DNA from: Balneolales bacterium
GTDB taxonomy: Bacteria; Bacteroidota; Rhodothermia; Balneolales; Natronogracilivirgulaceae
Length of the DNA: 34,002 nt
NCBI GenBank assembly: GCA_007134845.1
Contig: SLKA01000116.1
Coordinates: 1 to 34,002 of the forward strand
Reading direction: 5' to 3'
In this document: in pieces, positions 13,298 through 24,443 of the stretch
Position numbering within the stretch: position 1 is the first letter of the stretch
How the letters are laid out: the number at the start of each line of letters is the position of its first letter
Translations under genes and position numbers: made by a program
Notes under the pieces: model-generated
What the model was told of the DNA's origin: nothing
The model's database searches: none
Seen by the model: the letters and a program-made list of their open reading frames with translations, nothing else

Positions 13298-15367
13298 TCA
13301 AGATGACCTGCGCGATCCTCTGATGTCGATGGCAAACGCGCCGTCGCCTGCTTTGAGAACATAAAGCGGATTCATCTCCATTTCCGTGATTTCGGGATGG
13401 TTGGCGGCGATGTGACTCATCCGGATGAGGATATCGGTGACCACGTCACGGTCACGCGGCGGCATATTGCGCCAGCCCTGCAGCTTGCGTCCGGCGATGG
13501 TGGCATCGATGAGACGGCCGGCCTCGACCGTGTTGAGCGGGGCTATGGCCGTGCACACGTCCTTGTATAGTTCCACTTCGGTCCCACCCGTGCCGAAAAG
13601 AACCAATCCGCCGAACTGGGAATCCTGTTTGATGCCGATTATAAGTTCCTGTCCGTCGTGGAGCATCTGCTGAATGAGAACGCCACTCATATCCGCACCT
13701 GCGCCATCGGCCGCTTCGGCGATTTTGTTCCATGCCTCACGGACGTGTGACTCATCATTCAGATTGACCCGGATGCCGCCGATATCTGATTTATGCGTTA
13801 TTTTTTTGGAGATCAGCTTCATCACGACAGGGTAGCCGATGTTTTCAGCGGCGCGGACAGCCTCATCCGGGTCGCCGGCCACCATCTGTCCGGGCAGGGG
13901 AATGCCGTAGGCGGCAGCCAGTGCATGCCAGTTGCCGTCAGCGATAAGCTTGTCGGCGCCGGAGGGGACGGAAGGCGGGGCCGGGGTGGCGGCCTGTCCG
14001 GAGAGTTTGACGGAATCGAGCCATTCGCGTCTGGCGTTCATCACTTTAAGGATGGAAGCGGCTCTTTCCGGGAAGGCGACATTGGGGATGCTGCGCTTGT
14101 GAAGCAGGTCCAGGGTGTCTTCGGCGGTATCCTTGCCCATCAGGCAGGTAATAACGGGTTTTTTATAAAGTCTGGCGCCTTCCCCGATCACTTCGGCAAC
14201 GCTGGACTGCCGAAACCAGTCCTGCGGTGCCTGGATTACGATCACCGCATCTACCGTTTCGTCGGCCAGCAGCGCATCCAGCACAAGCGCATAGGTGGCC
14301 GGCCCGGTGCCGGCAACGATATCGACCGGGTTGTTGACACTTCCCGCTGCAGGGATCCGCTTTTTCAGCCATGCCTTGGTTTCGCCGGACAGCGGTGCCA
14401 TTTCAAGGCCATATTTCTGAAGGGCATCCACCGCCAGGATGCCGAAACCGCCGGCGTTGGTCAGTATGGCAACGCGTTTGCCTGCGGGGAGCGGCTGCCA
14501 GGCCAGTGCCCGCGCCTGGTCGAACATCTCCTGCATGTTGTTCACCTGCTGGATGCCGGCCTTGCGGAACGCAGCTTCATACGCTTCCATGCTGCCGGAC
14601 AGGGCGCCGGTATGGGAAGAGACGGCATCAGCCCCTTTCTCTGACTGTCCGCCTTTCAGAACCAGGTACGGCTTTTTCAGCGAGATCTCCTGTGATGCCC
14701 TGACAAACTCCTTTCCATCGGTGATGCCTTCGATGTAGGCCGTTATGACGCGGGTGTTCGGACTTTCAGCCACCGCCTGAATGGTTTCTGTGGCAGAAAC
14801 ATCCATCTGGTTGCCCATGGTCACTATGCGGGAAAAGCCGATGCCCTTGCTTTTGGACCAGTCTATCACCGAGACCACGACGGCCCCGGACTGTGAGACG
14901 AATCCGATATCACCCTTATCGGGCTGACCGAGTACAAAAGTGGTATTCAGCGGGGTGTGGGTGTCAATAACGCCGATGCAGTTGGGCCCAAGCACGCGGA
15001 TGCCGTATTTGCGGGCTATCTCTCTGAGTTCCATCTCCCGGGCGCGCCCTTCATCGCCCGTCTCGCTGAATCCGCCGCTCTGGATAATAACGTGCCCGAT
15101 TCCTGCTTCGCCGCAATGCCGCATCACTTCCGGAATGCCCTTGGCCGGGATGATGATGATTGCCAGCTCCACCTTTTCAGGAAGATCCTTTACCGAAGGA
15201 TAGCATATCATCCCTTCAATCTCGTGAGCATTTTTGTTGACCGGATAGATGTTGCCCATGAACCGGAAGCCGATGAGGTTGCGGATCACGTTGTTGCCCA
15301 TTTTGGCGGGATCAGCGGATGCGCCTACGACGGCAATCCGTTTGGGTGTGAAAAAGGGTTCTATCAT
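13298..15367 (-). CDS. acetate--CoA ligase family protein (NDP-forming acyl-CoA synthetase, fused alpha-beta)
   Basis: This enzyme interconverts acyl-CoA plus ADP and phosphate with free acid, ATP and CoA, so it can harvest ATP from acetyl-CoA or from acyl-CoAs made by amino-acid breakdown. The 689-residue protein begins at the ATG at 15367 (MIEPFFTPKRIAVVGAS); a GTG at 15427 would add 20 unconserved residues. Order: CoA-binding Rossmann domain (about 5-125, VVGAS), two succinyl-CoA-ligase-like domains carrying the phosphorylatable His252 in SSHTGALSGS, a linker rich in Ala/Pro (about 470-485), then the ATP-grasp beta domain (485-689) with YPVVMKLISKKITHKSD. It stands alone, divergent from the M48 gene, and lies about 2 kb from the CoA-transferase/thiolase operon whose products it could use. 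Confidence 0.92.
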   Translation of the reverse strand: MIEPFFTPKRIAVVGASADPAKMGNNVIRNLIGFRFMGNIYPVNKNAHEIEGMICYPSVKDLPEKVELAIIIIPAKGIPEVMRHCGEAGIGHVIIQSGGFSETGDEGRAREMELREIARKYGIRVLGPNCIGVIDTHTPLNTTFVLGQPDKGDIGFVSQSGAVVVSVIDWSKSKGIGFSRIVTMGNQMDVSATETIQAVAESPNTRVITAYIEGITDGKEFVRASQEISLKKPYLVLKGGQSEKGADAVSSHTGALSGSMEAYEAAFRKAGIQQVNNMQEMFDQARALAWQPLPAGKRVAILTNAGGFGILAVDALQKYGLEMAPLSGETKAWLKKRIPAAGSVNNPVDIVAGTGPATYALVLDALLADETVDAVIVIQAPQDWFRQSSVAEVIGEGARLYKKPVITCLMGKDTAEDTLDLLHKRSIPNVAFPERAASILKVMNARREWLDSVKLSGQAATPAPPSVPSGADKLIADGNWHALAAAYGIPLPGQMVAGDPDEAVRAAENIGYPVVMKLISKKITHKSDIGGIRVNLNDESHVREAWNKIAEAADGAGADMSGVLIQQMLHDGQELIIGIKQDSQFGGLVLFGTGGTEVELYKDVCTAIAPLNTVEAGRLIDATIAGRKLQGWRNMPPRDRDVVTDILIRMSHIAANHPEITEMEMNPLYVLKAGDGAFAIDIRGSRRSS

Positions 15368-15494
15368 GGTATGTGATGAAGGGTTAGTCGGTGCCTGGTC
15401 GGTGCACTGCAGGTCCTGGATACTCACTCCGGGTTCATATTTTCACCGTATCTGCATTCGTGATGATACAATCAACAATCAGCCGAACACTAAA

Positions 15495-17378: not shown

Positions 17379-18581
17379 TCAGACTTTTTCCATCACCACG
17401 GATATGCCCTGGCCGACACCGATGCACATGGTGCACAGGGCCTTCTTCGCATCCGTGCGCTGCAGCTGCCAGAATGCGGTGGTGACGATGCGTGCGCCGC
17501 TCGCGCCGAGCGGGTGGCCCAGTGCAATGGCACCGCCCAGCGGGTTGATTCTCGGATCGTGATCTTCGAGCCCGAGTTCGCGTATACATCCAAGTGCCTG
17601 AGCAGCAAAAGCCTCGTTCAATTCGATGATGTCGAACGAGTCGAGGGTGAGGTTCAGGCGCGGCAGCAGCTTGTTCGTGGCCGGCACCGGACCCATGCCC
17701 ATCACGCGCGGCAGCACACCCGCCGTTGCCATACCCAGAATCCGGGCTCTGGGTGTCAGTTTGTGCTTTTTAACCGCATCTGCCGAGGCGAGTATGACGG
17801 CCGCAGCACCGTCATTGACACCGGAGGCGTTCCCGGCCGTAACAGACCCGTTCTTGCGTGAAACCGGCCGGAGCGTCGAGAGTTTTTCGACCGAGCTGAG
17901 CCGGGGATGCTCATCGGTATCCACAACGACCGGATCACCCTTGCGCTGCGGAATGACAACGGGCACAATTTCTTCCGCCAGATATCCTTTTTTTTGCGCC
18001 TCTGCTGCCTTCTCCTGACTCCAGTGAGCGAATATGTCCTGATCCTCCCGGCTGATGTTAAAATCGGCGGCGATGTTCTCTGCGGTCTCGATCAGTGGCT
18101 CCGTACCGTACATTTCATCCATTTTTTTGTTGATAAAGCGCCACCCGATCGTGCTGTCGTACATGCTCACCGACCTGGAAAAAGCTTCGGCCGATTTATC
18201 CATCACAAACGGGGCCCGTGACATGCTCTCCACACCACCGGCGACGATGAGATCGGCCTCGCCGGCCCGGATTATGCGCGCGGCATTGCCGATGGCATCC
18301 ATCCCGGATCCGCATAGCCGGTTGACGGTCATGCCGGGGATCGTCTCGGACAATCCCGCCAGCAGAAGCGACATTCGGGCAACATTGCGGTTATCCTCTC
18401 CGGCCTGGTTGGCGCAGCCCAGAATCACATCATCCACTTCAAGCCAGTTTACATCCGGGTTGCGCTCCACCAGTTTGCGGATCGGCATGGCACCCAGGTC
18501 ATCGGGACGGACTTGCGAAAGGCTGCCGCCGTAGCGTCCGACGGGTGTTCGTATGGCATCACAAATAAAAACTTCTCTCAT
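17379..18581 (-). CDS. pcaF: thiolase of the 3-oxoadipyl-CoA (PcaF) type
   Basis: The enzyme cleaves a 3-oxoacyl-CoA with CoA to acetyl-CoA and a shortened acyl-CoA. At 400 residues it matches the PcaF length, and the start [20 protein letters not shown], the motif [15 protein letters not shown] and the end [10 protein letters not shown] are very like 3-oxoadipyl-CoA thiolases as I recall them. Catalytic residues are Cys90 ([10 protein letters not shown]), His356 ([10 protein letters not shown]) and Cys386. It is the last gene of the minus-strand operon, 80 bp after the aminotransferase. No pca ring-cleavage genes are present, so the upstream source of its substrate is probably the other operon genes rather than aromatics. 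Exact acyl specificity is inferred, and an acetyl-CoA acetyltransferase role cannot be excluded. Confidence 0.9.
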
Positions 18582-18661: not shown

Positions 18662-20026
18662 TTAAGGTGTGTCCGGGGTTCCGTTTAGCGCATCCAGTTT
18701 CGGTTTGATGTGGCGGAATCCGTTCAGCATGGCCTGGCTCAGGCGGTCCACCTCGGTCTGAGTGATGGCGGTAGACAGCGTGCAGGTGCCGGTATTTATC
18801 ATCATAATATGCTGATGCACGTGCATGAAGTCCAGGAATTCCCTGAGGATGGCCGTTTCTTCTTTGGGCTGATACGCCTCGCGATATGTATTTGGCGCTT
18901 TGGAACGGAAATGGATGCGGAACATGGATCCGTCACCGGTAAGCGAGATAGGCACTTCGGCAACACGGGCCGCCTCTTCGATCTGCTCAATGGTGATCCG
19001 GGTAAGTGCGTTCAGGTTTTTCACGGTGTCCCGGTCGAACAGCTCCATGGCCAGACGTCCGGCGGTCATGGTAATCGGATTGGCGGAGAAGGTTCCGGAA
19101 TGGGGATAGAGGAGTTTGCTTTCGCGCGGGTCCAGCACCTTCATCACATCCTCCCGGCCTGCAAGGCCGCCCACAGGGAAACCGCCGCCGATGATTTTTC
19201 CGATGGATGTGAGATCCGGCTTCACCGAATAGCTTTCCTGGGCGCCGCCGTAGTTAACGCGCAGGGTGACCACCTCGTCGAATGCCAGCAGCGCTCCGTT
19301 GCGGCGTGTCCAGGCGTACAGCTCATCCACAAATTCATTTTCGGCTCGGAAGAGACCGATGCGATGGGCGACAGGATCAATGATGACGCAGGCGATCTGA
19401 TCGGCGTACTTGTCGAGCAGAGCCAGGGTGCGCTTGGTGTCGTTGTACGGGAAGATAACCACGTTGTCCATGACGCCCTGCGGGGTGCCGTTGACCAGCG
19501 GGACCCGGTTGGGTTCGTCAATATCACCCCAGTTTGAGGGATTGGAAGTCTGACTGACCTCAGCGAAGTCGTATGTCCCGTGATAGGAGCCTTCGGCTTT
19601 GGCGATCATCTTCCGGCCGGTGAAGGCCCGTGCGGCTTTGATCAGAGCCATGACCGCTTCCGTGCCGGAATTGACAAAACGGATCCGTTCGAACGAGGGT
19701 ACCCTTTCGTGCAGCAGCTGCGCAAAAGCGACCTCGGACTCGGTGGCCATGGTGTAGGCGGTGCCGCGCATAAGCTGCTCCACGACGGCGCTGACGATGG
19801 CCGGGTGGGCGTGGCCGTGGATGAGCGAGGCCATGTTGTTGGCGAAGTCGATGTGCTCAACCCCGTCAATATCGGTCACATAGCATCCCGAAGCGTGGGA
19901 GACGTAGAAAGGATGCGGCCTGCGGAATACGGTGTTGCGGCTCACACCGCCAGTAATGACATCGCACGCCTGTTTGTAGATCTGTTCGCCGCTCCGTTTT
20001 TCTTTGATCGAGCCTGCTGCCAGCAT
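18662..20026 (-). CDS. class III PLP aminotransferase, glutamate-1-semialdehyde-aminomutase-like (possible beta-transaminase)
   Basis: The 454-residue protein belongs to fold-type I, class III aminotransferases and resembles the HemL subgroup (DVITGGVSRN, RFVNSGTEAVMALIKAARAFTG). NSGTEA (119-124) forms the phosphate cup, Asp250 in LLAFDEV contacts the PLP ring nitrogen, and Lys277 in TSIGKIIGGGFPVGG is the Schiff-base lysine. HemL-like relatives include beta-amino-acid and 3-aminoacyl-CoA transaminases, which bind the substrate with the amino group at C3. Lying between a CoA-transferase and a thiolase gene, downstream of an aminomutase, it most likely converts a 3-amino acid to a 3-oxo acid (inference). 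A heme-pathway role is unlikely in this context. The ATG at 20026 lies 66 bp after the CoA-transferase B gene. Confidence 0.85.
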   Translation of the reverse strand: MLAAGSIKEKRSGEQIYKQACDVITGGVSRNTVFRRPHPFYVSHASGCYVTDIDGVEHIDFANNMASLIHGHAHPAIVSAVVEQLMRGTAYTMATESEVAFAQLLHERVPSFERIRFVNSGTEAVMALIKAARAFTGRKMIAKAEGSYHGTYDFAEVSQTSNPSNWGDIDEPNRVPLVNGTPQGVMDNVVIFPYNDTKRTLALLDKYADQIACVIIDPVAHRIGLFRAENEFVDELYAWTRRNGALLAFDEVVTLRVNYGGAQESYSVKPDLTSIGKIIGGGFPVGGLAGREDVMKVLDPRESKLLYPHSGTFSANPITMTAGRLAMELFDRDTVKNLNALTRITIEQIEEAARVAEVPISLTGDGSMFRIHFRSKAPNTYREAYQPKEETAILREFLDFMHVHQHIMMINTGTCTLSTAITQTEVDRLSQAMLNGFRHIKPKLDALNGTPDTP

Positions 20027-20092: not shown

Positions 20093-20752
20093 TCAGGAAT
20101 ACTGATTGAGTTTTGCCTCCGTACGCTCCTGCACATAATCAAAGGTGACACCGGGCGCAAGTTCCCTGATGAAAAGGCCCTTGTCGGTGACATCAATGAT
20201 GGCAAGATCGGTGTAAATGGTGTTCACCACGTTCTTTCCTGTCAGGGGATAGGTGCATTCCCTGACGATTTTCGGTTCGCCGGTTTTGGTTGTATGCCGG
20301 CTGATAACATATATTTTGATATCGCCTGCCACCAGATCCATGGCCCCGCCGACGGCAGGGATGGCGTCCGGCGCTCCGGTTGACCAGTTGGCCAGATCAC
20401 CCTCTTCGGAGATCTGAAGGGCGCCGAGCACGCAGATATCGATGTGATTGCCCCGGATCATCGTAAAACTGTCGGCATGATGAAAAAAGCAGGCACCGGG
20501 AATGGCGGTCACGCACTTCTTTCCGGCGTTGATCAGTTCGGGATCCTCTTTGCCGGGTTCGGGCACCGGGCCCATGCCCAGCAGGCCGTTTTCGGTATGG
20601 TAGATGACTTCCCTGCCTTCGGGGACATAATCGGCCACCAGTTCCGGCATGCCTATACCCAGGTTCACGTACGAGCCGTCGAGAATATCCAGGGCTGCCT
20701 TTTGAGCCATTTCACCTATACTCCAGCCTTTTTTCTCTTCATTGCCTACCAT
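20093..20752 (-). CDS. pcaJ: 3-oxoacid CoA-transferase subunit B (PcaJ-like)
   Basis: This is the 219-residue catalytic subunit of a two-component family I CoA-transferase, which moves CoA from a donor (succinyl-CoA in known PcaIJ) to a 3-oxo acid. Glu54 in HTENGLLGMGPVP is the residue that forms the glutamyl-CoA thioester. CFFHHADSFTMIRGNHID, DLANWSTG, IPAVGGAMDLV and ECTYPLTG follow the PcaJ/ScoB pattern closely. The start ATG overlaps the end of the subunit A gene (ATGGTAG) and has a strong AGGAGG five bases upstream, so expression should be translationally coupled one to one with subunit A. Ketone-body (acetoacetate) transferases are the main alternative identity. Confidence 0.9.
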   Translation of the reverse strand: MVGNEEKKGWSIGEMAQKAALDILDGSYVNLGIGMPELVADYVPEGREVIYHTENGLLGMGPVPEPGKEDPELINAGKKCVTAIPGACFFHHADSFTMIRGNHIDICVLGALQISEEGDLANWSTGAPDAIPAVGGAMDLVAGDIKIYVISRHTTKTGEPKIVRECTYPLTGKNVVNTIYTDLAIIDVTDKGLFIRELAPGVTFDYVQERTEAKLNQYS

Positions 20753-21459
20753 GGATACCTCCTGTCTTCAGCTACAAGTTTCGACTCTTCAGCGGGATTG
20801 GCCACTTCAACCACTTTATTCACAAAGATGCCGGGTGTGACAACGGTTTCGGGATCGATATCACCCAGCCCGACGATCTGTTTGGCCTGAACAATGGTGG
20901 TCTTTGCGGCCGTGCACATGATCGGTCCGAAATTCCGGGCGGTCTTGTTGTAGATCAGGTTGCCGTACCGGTCAGCCGCCTTGCACTTGACCAATGAAAA
21001 ATCGGCCTCAAGGGCATGCTGCATGACATAGGTTTTCCCGTTGAATTCACGCGTCTCCTTGCCTTCGGCCAGCGGAGTGCCGACAGAGGTAGGAGTGTAA
21101 AATGCGGGGATACCGGCGCCGCCGGAGCGGATTCGTTCCGCAAGGGTGCCCTGGGGCACGAGTTCCAGTTCAATTTCGCCATTTTTGTACAGTTCGGGGA
21201 ATACTTTGGAATTGGCGGTCCTGGGAAAGGAACAGATCATTTTGGCCACGCGGCGGTGGGCGATAAGCGCGGCGAGTCCGACATGACCACTGCCCGTGTT
21301 GTTGCTTATGACTGTCAGATCCTTTGCGCCCTGATCAATCAGAGCATGAATGAGTTCGATGGGACTTCCTGCTTCACCAAACCCGCTGATCATTACAACT
21401 GCACCATCAAAAATATCCTCAACTGCTTCAGCCGGTGATGCAAATATTTTATTAATCAT
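20746..21459 (-). CDS. pcaI: 3-oxoacid CoA-transferase subunit A (PcaI-like)
   Basis: The 237-residue subunit pairs with the following PcaJ-like protein. SGFGEAGSPIELIHAL near the N-terminus is the family CoA/glycine motif, and SNNTGSGHVGLAALI, SFPRTANS, VPQGTLAERIR, GTPLAEGKETREF, NFGPIMCTAAKTTIVQ and VTPGIF match 3-oxoadipate CoA-transferase subunit A as I recall it. It starts 31 bp after the KamA-family stop codon and overlaps the B subunit by 7 bp. The first-step substrate is inferred from neighbours to be a 3-oxo acid formed by the aminotransferase. An acetoacetate specificity remains possible. Confidence 0.9.
   Translation of the reverse strand: MINKIFASPAEAVEDIFDGAVVMISGFGEAGSPIELIHALIDQGAKDLTVISNNTGSGHVGLAALIAHRRVAKMICSFPRTANSKVFPELYKNGEIELELVPQGTLAERIRSGGAGIPAFYTPTSVGTPLAEGKETREFNGKTYVMQHALEADFSLVKCKAADRYGNLIYNKTARNFGPIMCTAAKTTIVQAKQIVGLGDIDPETVVTPGIFVNKVVEVANPAEESKLVAEDRRYPW
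20758..20763 (-). promoter_or_regulatory. strong Shine-Dalgarno for the CoA-transferase B subunit
   Basis: AGGAGG on the minus strand lies five bases (TATCC) ahead of the ATG at 20752 and within the last codons of the subunit A gene. It is one of the few strong ribosome-binding sites in the window; together with the ATGGTAG overlap it fixes the start and suggests coupled synthesis of the two subunits. Confidence 0.8.
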
Positions 21460-21490: not shown

Positions 21491-23113
21491 TCAATGCTGT
21501 TCATCTATCTTTTTCTGAAGATTCTGCTCGAGGGTCTGCTCGATTTCGGCGAGCTCGTCTTCGTAGAAATATTTTTCCGTGTCGTACGGTTTCAATTTTT
21601 CAATAGTATTCTCTTTCTCGTCGTATTTGGCCAGGTACACGCGGTCCATCCAATCCATTTTTCTGCCCTCGTTGAACTTCAGCACAAACACTTTTTCGCC
21701 GTTGATGACGGCGGTGCCGATGAGGGAGACTTTTCCGGCCGATGAGGTCATGGTGATGTACCTGGACGGGCGGTTGATTGAAGGCAGCGTGCGGTAGACC
21801 TTGCTGAACACCTTGTCGATGTCGGCAAGCGGAGCCGAGAAGTAGTGGTGCTCGCCGGTCGGACGTGCGCAGTACATTGAGTGGAAACCGACGCCCAGCA
21901 TGCCGAGCGCGTTGCCAAGGTCGATCCAGTTCTGTGCCGAACGGTCCACATCCACCGAACCGTCCACTTTTTTGAAGAGGCTGATGTGGTTCATAATCGG
22001 ACTCTGGCTGCGGATGGTGACTCCGTGTGCCTTGAGTCGCCGGATGGCAGCGATGGTAGAGGGGTTGAGCACTTCGCGCGGAGTGGAGAAGTGGGCCATC
22101 CAGACAACCTGGATGCCGTTGTCGTATAGCTTCTGGAAGAGCTCCAGGAACCGGTTGTAGTCGTTGCTCAGGACCATTTCGGGATGGAAAGTGAGCGCAC
22201 GGGAGCCAAGCCGGAGCGTTTTGATGTGCATCAGGCTATCGTCCTCGATGAACGGTGTGACGTACTCTTCCAGCCGCTGGTAGGGGATGTGGCCGGCATC
22301 GCCGCCGGTGATGAGCATATCAGAGACTTCGGGATGTTTTCTGAGGTAGCTGTGCACCTGGGCAATTTCTTCCTGGACAAACATGTCCTCATCGCCTCTG
22401 ACCTGGGCATGGCGGAAGCAGTAGGTGCAGAATGCAAAGCAGCTTTGCGTGGTTTTGTCGAAAATCAGCTGGCAGGGTGGATATTTATGCTGGCTGCCCT
22501 TGACGATCTCCAGTTCCCCCTCTTCGTTGGTATACCAGGGTTTGTTGAGCAGCTGCTTGCCGTCGTGCGGGTTGATCCGCGTCTGATGCTCCCGCACAAC
22601 CTGCTGCCGTTCTTCTTCGGTTTCGGCTTTGAGGTAGGCCTTCACCACATCCTCCCGGATCATTCCCGGCTGCGGGATCACGAGCTGGAACAGCGGGTCT
22701 TCATGCGGGTCGTTCCAGTTGATTTTGTTCAGCACGTGTTTGGTGGCAAGGAAGCGGTACACATCGATGAACAGCTCACGTTCCTTTATGTGGCCGATAT
22801 CGATGCCGTTTTTTTCCAGGATCTCAATGATCTCGCGAAACCCTTTCATTCCCGAGTAGTGCTGCTTGCCGGTAAACATGAATTCATCTGTTTCCAGAAT
22901 GCCTGAATGTTCGGGATAGCTGGAGTGGAGTCGGGTGAGAACGCCGGCAGGTAGCAGGTTTTCCTGTTCGATATTGGACCGGATGTCATCCGGATACAAA
23001 TAGCGATCCATGATCATGGCAATATCGGCCTTGTCGATGACGTGTTTGCCTTGTGAAGGTATGGCAGTCGGTCGGTCGCTTAGTACCAGGGTGTTTGCGT
23101 TTGATTCGGCCAT
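21491..23113 (-). CDS. KamA-family radical SAM aminomutase, substrate unknown
   Basis: Radical-SAM, PLP-dependent 2,3-aminomutases move an amino group from C2 to C3. The 540-residue protein carries the [4Fe-4S] motif CxxxCxxC (Cys225, Cys229, Cys232), a SAM-binding GGD (270-272), the family's RLGSRA (301-306) and a PLP lysine candidate, Lys461 in SSAGKVS. It is about 120 residues longer than clostridial lysine 2,3-aminomutase, with an extended N-terminus (1-110). Aligned by eye, the two aspartates that bind the substrate epsilon-amino group in that enzyme (Asp293, Asp330) correspond to Ala416 and Thr454, with Arg417 beside the first. So the substrate is probably not lysine. It is the first gene of the operon with the CoA-transferase, aminotransferase and thiolase. 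The start (MAESNANT) follows a good promoter candidate. Confidence 0.85.
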   Translation of the reverse strand: MAESNANTLVLSDRPTAIPSQGKHVIDKADIAMIMDRYLYPDDIRSNIEQENLLPAGVLTRLHSSYPEHSGILETDEFMFTGKQHYSGMKGFREIIEILEKNGIDIGHIKERELFIDVYRFLATKHVLNKINWNDPHEDPLFQLVIPQPGMIREDVVKAYLKAETEEERQQVVREHQTRINPHDGKQLLNKPWYTNEEGELEIVKGSQHKYPPCQLIFDKTTQSCFAFCTYCFRHAQVRGDEDMFVQEEIAQVHSYLRKHPEVSDMLITGGDAGHIPYQRLEEYVTPFIEDDSLMHIKTLRLGSRALTFHPEMVLSNDYNRFLELFQKLYDNGIQVVWMAHFSTPREVLNPSTIAAIRRLKAHGVTIRSQSPIMNHISLFKKVDGSVDVDRSAQNWIDLGNALGMLGVGFHSMYCARPTGEHHYFSAPLADIDKVFSKVYRTLPSINRPSRYITMTSSAGKVSLIGTAVINGEKVFVLKFNEGRKMDWMDRVYLAKYDEKENTIEKLKPYDTEKYFYEDELAEIEQTLEQNLQKKIDEQH

Positions 23114-23197: not shown

Positions 23198-23467
23198 GGA
23201 TTTATTTTACGGATTTATCGGGTGATCGGTTCCCACAGTACCGTAACGTGCCGGATAGGAAAAACGGGCGCAGCATGGAATAATAATTGCACCGGTGCTT
23301 TTCGGTATCACTTTGGGGTCCCGTAAAGAAGAGATCATCCCTGTAATTGTAATAACATGTCAATAATCACAAAATGTAATCAATTCGAAATATAGTTAAG
23401 CGCAAGTTCAAAGGAAATTAAAAAATTTCAAATGAACGAGGATTTTATTGGGATGATGAAAGCTGTG
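23198..23467. other. intergenic stretch with an imperfect stem-loop
   Basis: No gene is seen. Positions 23406-23437 form an imperfect stem-loop: gttcaaaggaaatt pairs with aatttcaaatgaac (three mismatches) around AAAA. It lies downstream of the beta-barrel gene at 23619 on the minus strand, beyond the 18-bp array, and could be its weak AT-rich terminator. The rest is unremarkable. Confidence 0.3.
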
Positions 23468-23629
23468 GTCGGGGGTCAGTAAGACGTTCGGGTTAAAAAA
23501 TAGTCGGGGTTCAAAAAGTGGGCAGGGGTCAGAATGATGTCCGGGTTCGGAATGACATCGGGGTTCGGAATGACATCGGGGTTCAGAATGTCGTCGGGGT
23601 TCAGAAAGTGGGTAGGGATCAGAAAGTCC
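23468..23629. repeat. 18-bp tandem repeat, nine units, overlapping a gene's 3' end
   Basis: Nine contiguous units of exactly 18 bp, consensus tcggggttcagaatgaca, run from 23468 to 23629. Units at 23540-23593 are best conserved, the outer ones diverged. The last unit (23612-23629) covers the stop and final codons of the beta-barrel gene. Because 18 is divisible by three, the array stays open in one minus-strand frame as a 6-residue repeat (SEPRCH-like), but that frame is not the frame of the gene. Confidence 0.9.
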
Positions 23630-24443
23630 AGATGAGGCCGAACGGCAGGAAGTTGATCCAGGAGAAGTTGTAGACCTGGTCGACGTCGGCGCCGCCTTCG
23701 AGGACGCGGTAACCGGTGAAGAGAGCCAGATGATCCCGGAGATGGTAATGAACGGTGAGTGCGGCGTCGGTGGCCCGGCCTTGCGGACCGGCGAGCGTTT
23801 CGGCGTCGAGTTGCACCCAGAGCCGATCGGTGAGTGTGCGGGAGGCAAACAGGTGAACCAGCGGGACAAATCCCAGGTCGGTGTCCTGGTCGGACCGCCC
23901 GTCCTGCACCAGCTGCACTTTGGCGTCGCGGATAAGCCCGGCCAGGCCCGCGCCCAGTTTCCAGGGCCCGCGATCGTAGAACGTGTAGCGATAGGTGATG
24001 CGGTAGGTGTTGAATCGGTAGGTGCCTTTCAGTGGTATTCCTGAAGCGAATTCGGAATTTGCAAACAGCACCGGGCCCTCTTGAACAATGATCCCGGTTC
24101 CGCTTTTTGTAAGTGGGGCAAACAAAATACGCACTTTATGGTGCTCCAGGATCTGCATGTTGAGTCGTAGCCGGTAGTAGGGAGCGAAATCGCTTCCGAT
24201 GAGATCGATCATGTCGAAGCGCGTGCCGCCCTCGTTGGGGATGCGCACGTCGTTGCGGCTGAACCAGAGTCCACCCGTTTCGGCCTCCAGGGTGAACGTT
24301 TGCGCTCCGGACTGTTCGGCGGGTGTGAGCAGGAGAACGGCAAGAAGAACCGTTACAAGCGCAGGCAGTCGTGCTGGTCCGGTGCGAAACGGATGGTTGC
24401 CGGTTCGAAAGGGGTGGTTGTCGGTTTGTTTCGTGTTTTTCAT
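23619..24443 (-). CDS. predicted outer-membrane beta-barrel protein, function unknown
   Basis: The 274-residue protein has a signal peptide whose hydrophobic core (about 27-42) ends near SGAQ. The mature part is a run of alternating amphipathic strands rich in Tyr, Phe and Arg (for example YRFNTYRITYRYTFYD and VHYHLRDHLALFTGYRVLEG) and ends in aromatic Phe, all typical of small outer-membrane barrels. The residue just before the signal core is preceded by a duplicated NHPFRTG peptide (a 21-bp in-frame duplication). No family is recognised beyond generic porin-like barrels. The last codons lie in an 18-bp tandem array. It lies 125 bp downstream of the flavoprotein gene and may be co-transcribed with it. 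Confidence 0.7.
   Translation of the reverse strand: MKNTKQTDNHPFRTGNHPFRTGPARLPALVTVLLAVLLLTPAEQSGAQTFTLEAETGGLWFSRNDVRIPNEGGTRFDMIDLIGSDFAPYYRLRLNMQILEHHKVRILFAPLTKSGTGIIVQEGPVLFANSEFASGIPLKGTYRFNTYRITYRYTFYDRGPWKLGAGLAGLIRDAKVQLVQDGRSDQDTDLGFVPLVHLFASRTLTDRLWVQLDAETLAGPQGRATDAALTVHYHLRDHLALFTGYRVLEGGADVDQVYNFSWINFLPFGLIWTF

Follow-up and report, generated by a model that had tools for sequence, protein, structure and literature searches.

A KamA-family radical SAM aminomutase at the head of a conserved five-gene operon: a probable 2-aminoadipate 2,3-aminomutase linked to lysine breakdown

The stretch of DNA analysed here (the window, 34,002 nucleotides, contig SLKA01000116.1 of a Balneolales bacterium, assembly GCA_007134845.1) carries a KamA-type radical SAM/PLP aminomutase, KAM, as the first of five genes on one strand. 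KAM is followed by the A and B subunits of a CoA-transferase, a class-III aminotransferase and a thiolase (Table 1). A gap of 31 bp separates KAM from subunit A, the two subunit genes overlap by 7 bp, and gaps of 66 bp and 80 bp precede the aminotransferase and thiolase genes, respectively. The length of about 540 residues given for KAM in a preliminary description of this DNA agrees with the minus-strand reading frame. Promoter-like sites, including the one upstream of KAM, are not clearly more numerous than in shuffled sequence. About eight imperfect 18-bp tandem units occupy positions 23472-23642 between KAM and the next upstream gene.

Table 1. Coordinates of the operon and neighbouring features in the window
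Feature	Position	Strand	Remarks
Promoter-like site TTGACA-18-GATGAT	23334..23363	(-)	upstream of KAM; consensus match only
KAM, KamA-type radical SAM/PLP aminomutase	21491..23113	(-)	proposed 2-aminoadipate 2,3-aminomutase; 540 aa
KAM residues			CX3CX2C 225-232; R234; GGD 270-272; R417 (Asp293 place); T454 (Asp330 place); K461
CoA-transferase subunit A, PcaI/ScoA subfamily	20746..21459	(-)	TIGR02429, 354 bits, cut-off 128.5
CoA-transferase subunit B, PcaJ/ScoB subfamily	20093..20752	(-)	TIGR02428, 296 bits, cut-off 243.6
Class-III HemL-like aminotransferase	18662..20026	(-)	PF00202; under hemL equivalog cut-off
3-Oxoadipyl-CoA thiolase, PcaF/PaaJ type	17379..18581	(-)	TIGR02430, 672 bits, cut-off 597
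Acyl-CoA synthetase, ADP-forming type	13298..15427	(-)	PF13607, PF13549, PF13380; beyond thiolase, outside conserved block

By its sequence KAM is a remote KamA-family protein. The radical SAM cysteines C225, C229 and C232, the GGD motif and the PLP lysine K461, all listed in the preliminary description, are invariant in an alignment of 50 homologues; since they are kept across phyla, chance is not a tenable source of these features. The KamA-family profile TIGR00238 matches KAM with 78 bits (E 4.8e-22), a significant superfamily match yet one under the curated cut-off of 199. None of the profiles for individual enzymes reaches its threshold: lysine 2,3-aminomutase (LAM; TIGR03820) scores 62 bits against a cut-off of 525, glutamate 2,3-aminomutase (TIGR04368) 60 against 650, arginine 2,3-aminomutase (TIGR04468) 59 against 600, and EpmB (TIGR03821) 57 against 369. 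A Pfam search of KAM finds no LAM_C domain (PF12544), which is present in a true LAM. An AlphaFold2 model of KAM (pLDDT 86.8, pTM 0.88) has LAM 2a5h as its best solved match in Foldseek (E 8e-15, 423 columns, 19% identity), so that the KamA fold is found together with the CX3CX2C motif, the GGD and the PLP lysine of the superfamily. Residues 118-476 of KAM match LAM-profile positions 66-366 in hhalign. An N-terminal extension of about 110 residues had been proposed; the N-terminus is indeed longer, by about 50 residues, and the remainder is an insertion at about 150-195.

In clostridial LAM, Asp293 and Asp330 bind the ammonium group of the substrate and Arg134 its carboxylate. Both acids had been noted as absent from KAM, and alignment with the structurally characterised LAM, by profile-profile hhalign and by MAFFT with 41 proteins aligned together, LAM, EpmB and a paralogue family among them, places no acidic residue in either column. 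The Asp330 column holds T454, as first described, with threonine in 44 of the 50 homologues and serine in the other six. The Asp293 place had been read as A416-R417; R417 stands and A416 does not, since the two alignments run without a gap through the region and both give R417. The rejected A416 register arose from anchoring on a shared cysteine. R417 is arginine in all 50 homologues, as is R234 at the Arg134 place, and the argument from charge reversal gains strength with R417, rather than A416, in the Asp293 column. EpmB of E. coli, which also acts on lysine, carries Asp and Glu at the two places in the MAFFT alignment. As a predicted binder of an omega-carboxylate, R417 fits 2-aminoadipate, the substrate suggested independently by the gene neighbourhood.

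A KamA-family tree, computed without glutamate and arginine 2,3-aminomutases, places KAM outside LAM and EpmB. The 15 KAM rows form one clade (100/100), with the paralogue family KAM2 as sister group (95/82). A split with support of 100/99 divides these two groups from EpmB, LAM and the LAM-like proteins; the EpmB row and one long protein (L175) are long branches whose own places are unsure. This separate position, the missing LAM_C domain and the replacement of both aspartates by Arg and Thr/Ser support the earlier proposal that KAM probably belongs to a different substrate class within the family. A separate true LAM scoring above the TIGR03820 cut-off is encoded in five KAM-carrying genomes; in Ancylomarina its gene is clustered with genes of the kce, kdd, kamD and kamE types.

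Several further KamA-type proteins were noticed. KAM2 is a single-gene family of Bacteroidota (L002 at G000:C75:2133-3308, L176 and L181-L196) that carries Arg in the Asp293 column and Ser in the Asp330 column; its substrate may be the same as that of KAM or a related one. A high-scoring lysine-ketoglutarate reductase (LKR) co-occurs with it in 12 of 25 KAM2 genomes, whereas 7 of the 223 other genomes have one (p 2e-9, a value confounded by relatedness). A third protein of 382 aa (L003:1171-2319, G000:C68) is LAM-like, has Gln at the Asp293 and Asp at the Asp330 place, and adjoins a gene that by eye resembles an ATP-grasp ligase. Radical SAM proteins of ~730-790 aa, such as L175 (G003:C14) and similar ones in other KAM genomes, have weak KamA similarity, and no PLP lysine is seen in their alignment.

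A scan of species genomes yields 80 loci with KAM relatives of 59-84% identity. When all open reading frames are clustered, most of these loci show the five genes in an unchanged order. Counted against 81 KAM loci, subunit A is present in 72, subunit B in 68, the aminotransferase in 69 and the thiolase in 63; where a partner is missing, in many cases the locus runs into a contig end or the gene is hidden by spurious reading frames that overlap it. According to the record titles, the loci belong to Balneolales, Bacteroidales, Ignavibacteria, Cloacimonadota, Acidobacteria, Edwardsbacteria, Krumholzibacteria, Sumerlaeaceae, Desulfuromusa, Actinobacteria and Eisenbacteria; most come from MAGs, and single taxon labels may therefore be wrong. 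A small protein with HTH_3 and cupin domains (L020:7374-7928, with related reading frames in 11 other loci), mostly encoded upstream of KAM, is a candidate operon regulator.

The partner enzymes point to a six-carbon dicarboxylic acid. The thiolase passes PRK09050 (690 bits, cut-off 605) as well as the model in Table 1, and among named enzymes of solved structure it comes closest to beta-ketoadipyl-CoA thiolases (553 bits for 6pca compared with 295 for BktB). The CoA-transferase is assigned to its subfamily by models that do not separate 3-oxoadipate from acetoacetate CoA-transferases. Solved relatives of the aminotransferase include beta-transaminases, among them enzymes for free beta-amino acids, and it is proposed to act as a beta-transaminase on 3-aminoadipate or on the CoA ester of that acid. 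Read backwards, the operon becomes sensible if the aminomutase delivers a C6 beta-amino dicarboxylic acid, 3-aminoadipate. The alpha isomer of this compound, 2-aminoadipate, is made by the saccharopine route and is the candidate substrate of KAM. A role of the PcaIJF-like genes in aromatic breakdown is rejected as unlikely, because just one of 22 KAM genomes has an intradiol ring-cleavage dioxygenase and the other 21 have none.

Genes that lead from lysine to 2-aminoadipate are linked to a minority of the KAM loci. For example, in Draconibacterium, Maribellus and relatives a piperidine-6-carboxylate dehydrogenase (NF050084, 801 bits, cut-off 730) and a saccharopine dehydrogenase directly follow the thiolase. 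Two Cloacimonadota loci have saccharopine dehydrogenase and LKR genes before KAM, and a Desulfuromusa MAG has a piperidine-6-carboxylate dehydrogenase and an amino-acid ABC transporter upstream of it. The saccharopine dehydrogenase matches fungal saccharopine reductase with 314 bits. At genome level, as judged by family and protein searches, LKR occurs in 19 of 22 KAM genomes compared with 64 of the 246 genomes that serve as background (Fisher p 3e-8), a difference confounded with relatedness, as the KAM genomes come from several phyla and the background from a single one; within the window's own family there is no clear difference (7 of 9 KAM and 5 of 11 non-KAM genomes). Piperidine-6-carboxylate dehydrogenase is not enriched (15/22 compared with 126/246, p 0.18), and seven KAM genomes have none over the cut-off. 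The genome of the window encodes this dehydrogenase (C23) and an LKR that matches the LKR domain of human AASS with 257 bits (C74); at 81% completeness it yields no saccharopine dehydrogenase (PF16653), and the relatives looked at in the same family likewise have LKR without it.

Taken together, KAM is probably a 2,3-aminomutase, with L-2-aminoadipate as the best candidate substrate, that would feed 3-aminoadipate to the enzymes of its operon. Lysine would be converted via saccharopine and 2-aminoadipate semialdehyde to 2-aminoadipate, and from there via 3-aminoadipate, 3-oxoadipate and 3-oxoadipyl-CoA to succinyl-CoA and acetyl-CoA. In the predicted mechanism a [4Fe-4S] cluster on C225/C229/C232 cleaves SAM, and the resulting 5′-deoxyadenosyl radical would take a hydrogen from C3 of the PLP aldimine formed with K461, whereupon the amino group would shift from C2 to C3. 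R234 would hold the alpha-carboxylate, and R417 and T454, in place of the two ammonium-binding aspartates, would bind the omega-carboxylate. The aminotransferase would then convert 3-aminoadipate to 3-oxoadipate, the PcaIJ-like transferase would load CoA onto it, and the PcaF-like thiolase would cleave 3-oxoadipyl-CoA. The acyl-CoA synthetase beyond the thiolase could make ATP from acyl-CoA products, if it is indeed tied to the operon.

Other substrates can be weighed against the same evidence. The glutamate 2,3-aminomutase of C. difficile has Lys332 and Asn369 at the Asp293 and Asp330 places. An arginine at the Asp293 place would also suit the carboxylate of glutamate, and the CoA-transferase and aminotransferase families are broad; glutamate would then be broken down via 3-aminoglutarate and 3-oxoglutaryl-CoA. 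This is nevertheless unlikely, as the glutamate profile stays far below its threshold, the 3-oxoadipyl type of thiolase fits an acid one carbon longer, and the linked genes belong to lysine breakdown, not to that of glutamate. Lysine itself, to which the KamA family and the linked genes might seem to point, would give beta-lysine and then 4-aminobutyryl-CoA and acetyl-CoA. It is rejected as a substrate on the residues, the tree and the coexisting true LAM, and we consider it very improbable: both ammonium-binding acids are gone, one of them reversed to Arg, five KAM genomes have a true LAM besides, the operon is devoid of a beta-lysine 5,6-aminomutase, and LKR and saccharopine dehydrogenase would use up lysine first. 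A sequence cannot give a substrate with certainty and residue 454 is neutral, which leaves some small room for leucine or a non-protein amino acid, but a hydrophobic side chain would be at odds with an invariant Arg and with a thiolase of the 3-oxoadipyl type.

Within the 2-aminoadipate pathway, the order of two steps may differ, and this variant, whose chance is counted inside that of the preferred reading, is possible though doubtful. CoA would be transferred to 3-aminoadipate before transamination, in keeping with the CoA-transferase genes preceding that of the aminotransferase and with the HemL-like Kat, an acyl-CoA beta-transaminase of lysine fermentation that acts only on CoA esters (PMC3149608). 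Against it, relatives of the aminotransferase at E 1e-60 (the query being this enzyme and not Kat) occur in 1 of 40 Cloacimonadota genomes and are missing from the 39 others, where Kat would be expected; orthology with Kat thus finds no support at this threshold. In addition, the solved relatives of the aminotransferase include transaminases that act on free beta-amino acids.

The proposed 2-aminoadipate pathway combines parts of several known systems. KAM shares with LAM (KamA; 2A5H) the radical SAM core and its cysteine motif, the carboxylate Arg, the PLP lysine and the closest solved fold, and differs from it in Arg417 for Asp293, Thr454 for Asp330, the lack of LAM_C, extra N-terminal and internal segments and another operon. 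With glutamate 2,3-aminomutase it shares the replacement of the lysine-binding acids and, presumably, an acidic side chain on the substrate, whereas the thiolase and the linked genes of its operon indicate a six-carbon acid. EpmB, the EF-P lysine mutase, belongs to the same superfamily but retains its acids, stands on a separate branch and has a profile that KAM falls far short of. Lysine fermentation with Kat (PMC3149608) likewise uses a 2,3-aminomutase, a HemL-like beta-transaminase, a CoA-transferase and a thiolase; in contrast to the KAM operon, it starts from lysine, needs kamD, kamE, kdd and kce, and makes acetoacetyl-CoA. The steps from 3-oxoadipate to succinyl-CoA and acetyl-CoA are those of PcaIJ and PcaF in the lower beta-ketoadipate pathway, which is fed by aromatic ring cleavage, whereas the KAM operon would be fed by 2-aminoadipate. 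The saccharopine route (LKR/SDH and piperidine-6-carboxylate dehydrogenase), whose genes are linked to the operon, would supply this compound. Its textbook continuation leads through 2-oxoadipate to glutaryl-CoA; the branch proposed here leads through 3-aminoadipate instead.

On balance, 2-aminoadipate 2,3-aminomutase would be a new activity, and with it the operon would form an undescribed bacterial lysine route that avoids glutaryl-CoA and crotonyl-CoA and is present in many phyla, probably including strict anaerobes. No description of 3-aminoadipate in connection with an aminomutase was found in the literature covered, which left out most subscription journals, and a prior description is possible. 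If the proposal is true, it provides a substrate for a widespread group of 'KamA family' proteins of unknown function and a chemically distinct, oxygen-independent route of lysine breakdown joined to the lower steps of the beta-ketoadipate pathway. The same genes would then represent an enzyme set for the C6 dicarboxylates 3-aminoadipate and 3-oxoadipate, relevant to adipate chemistry.
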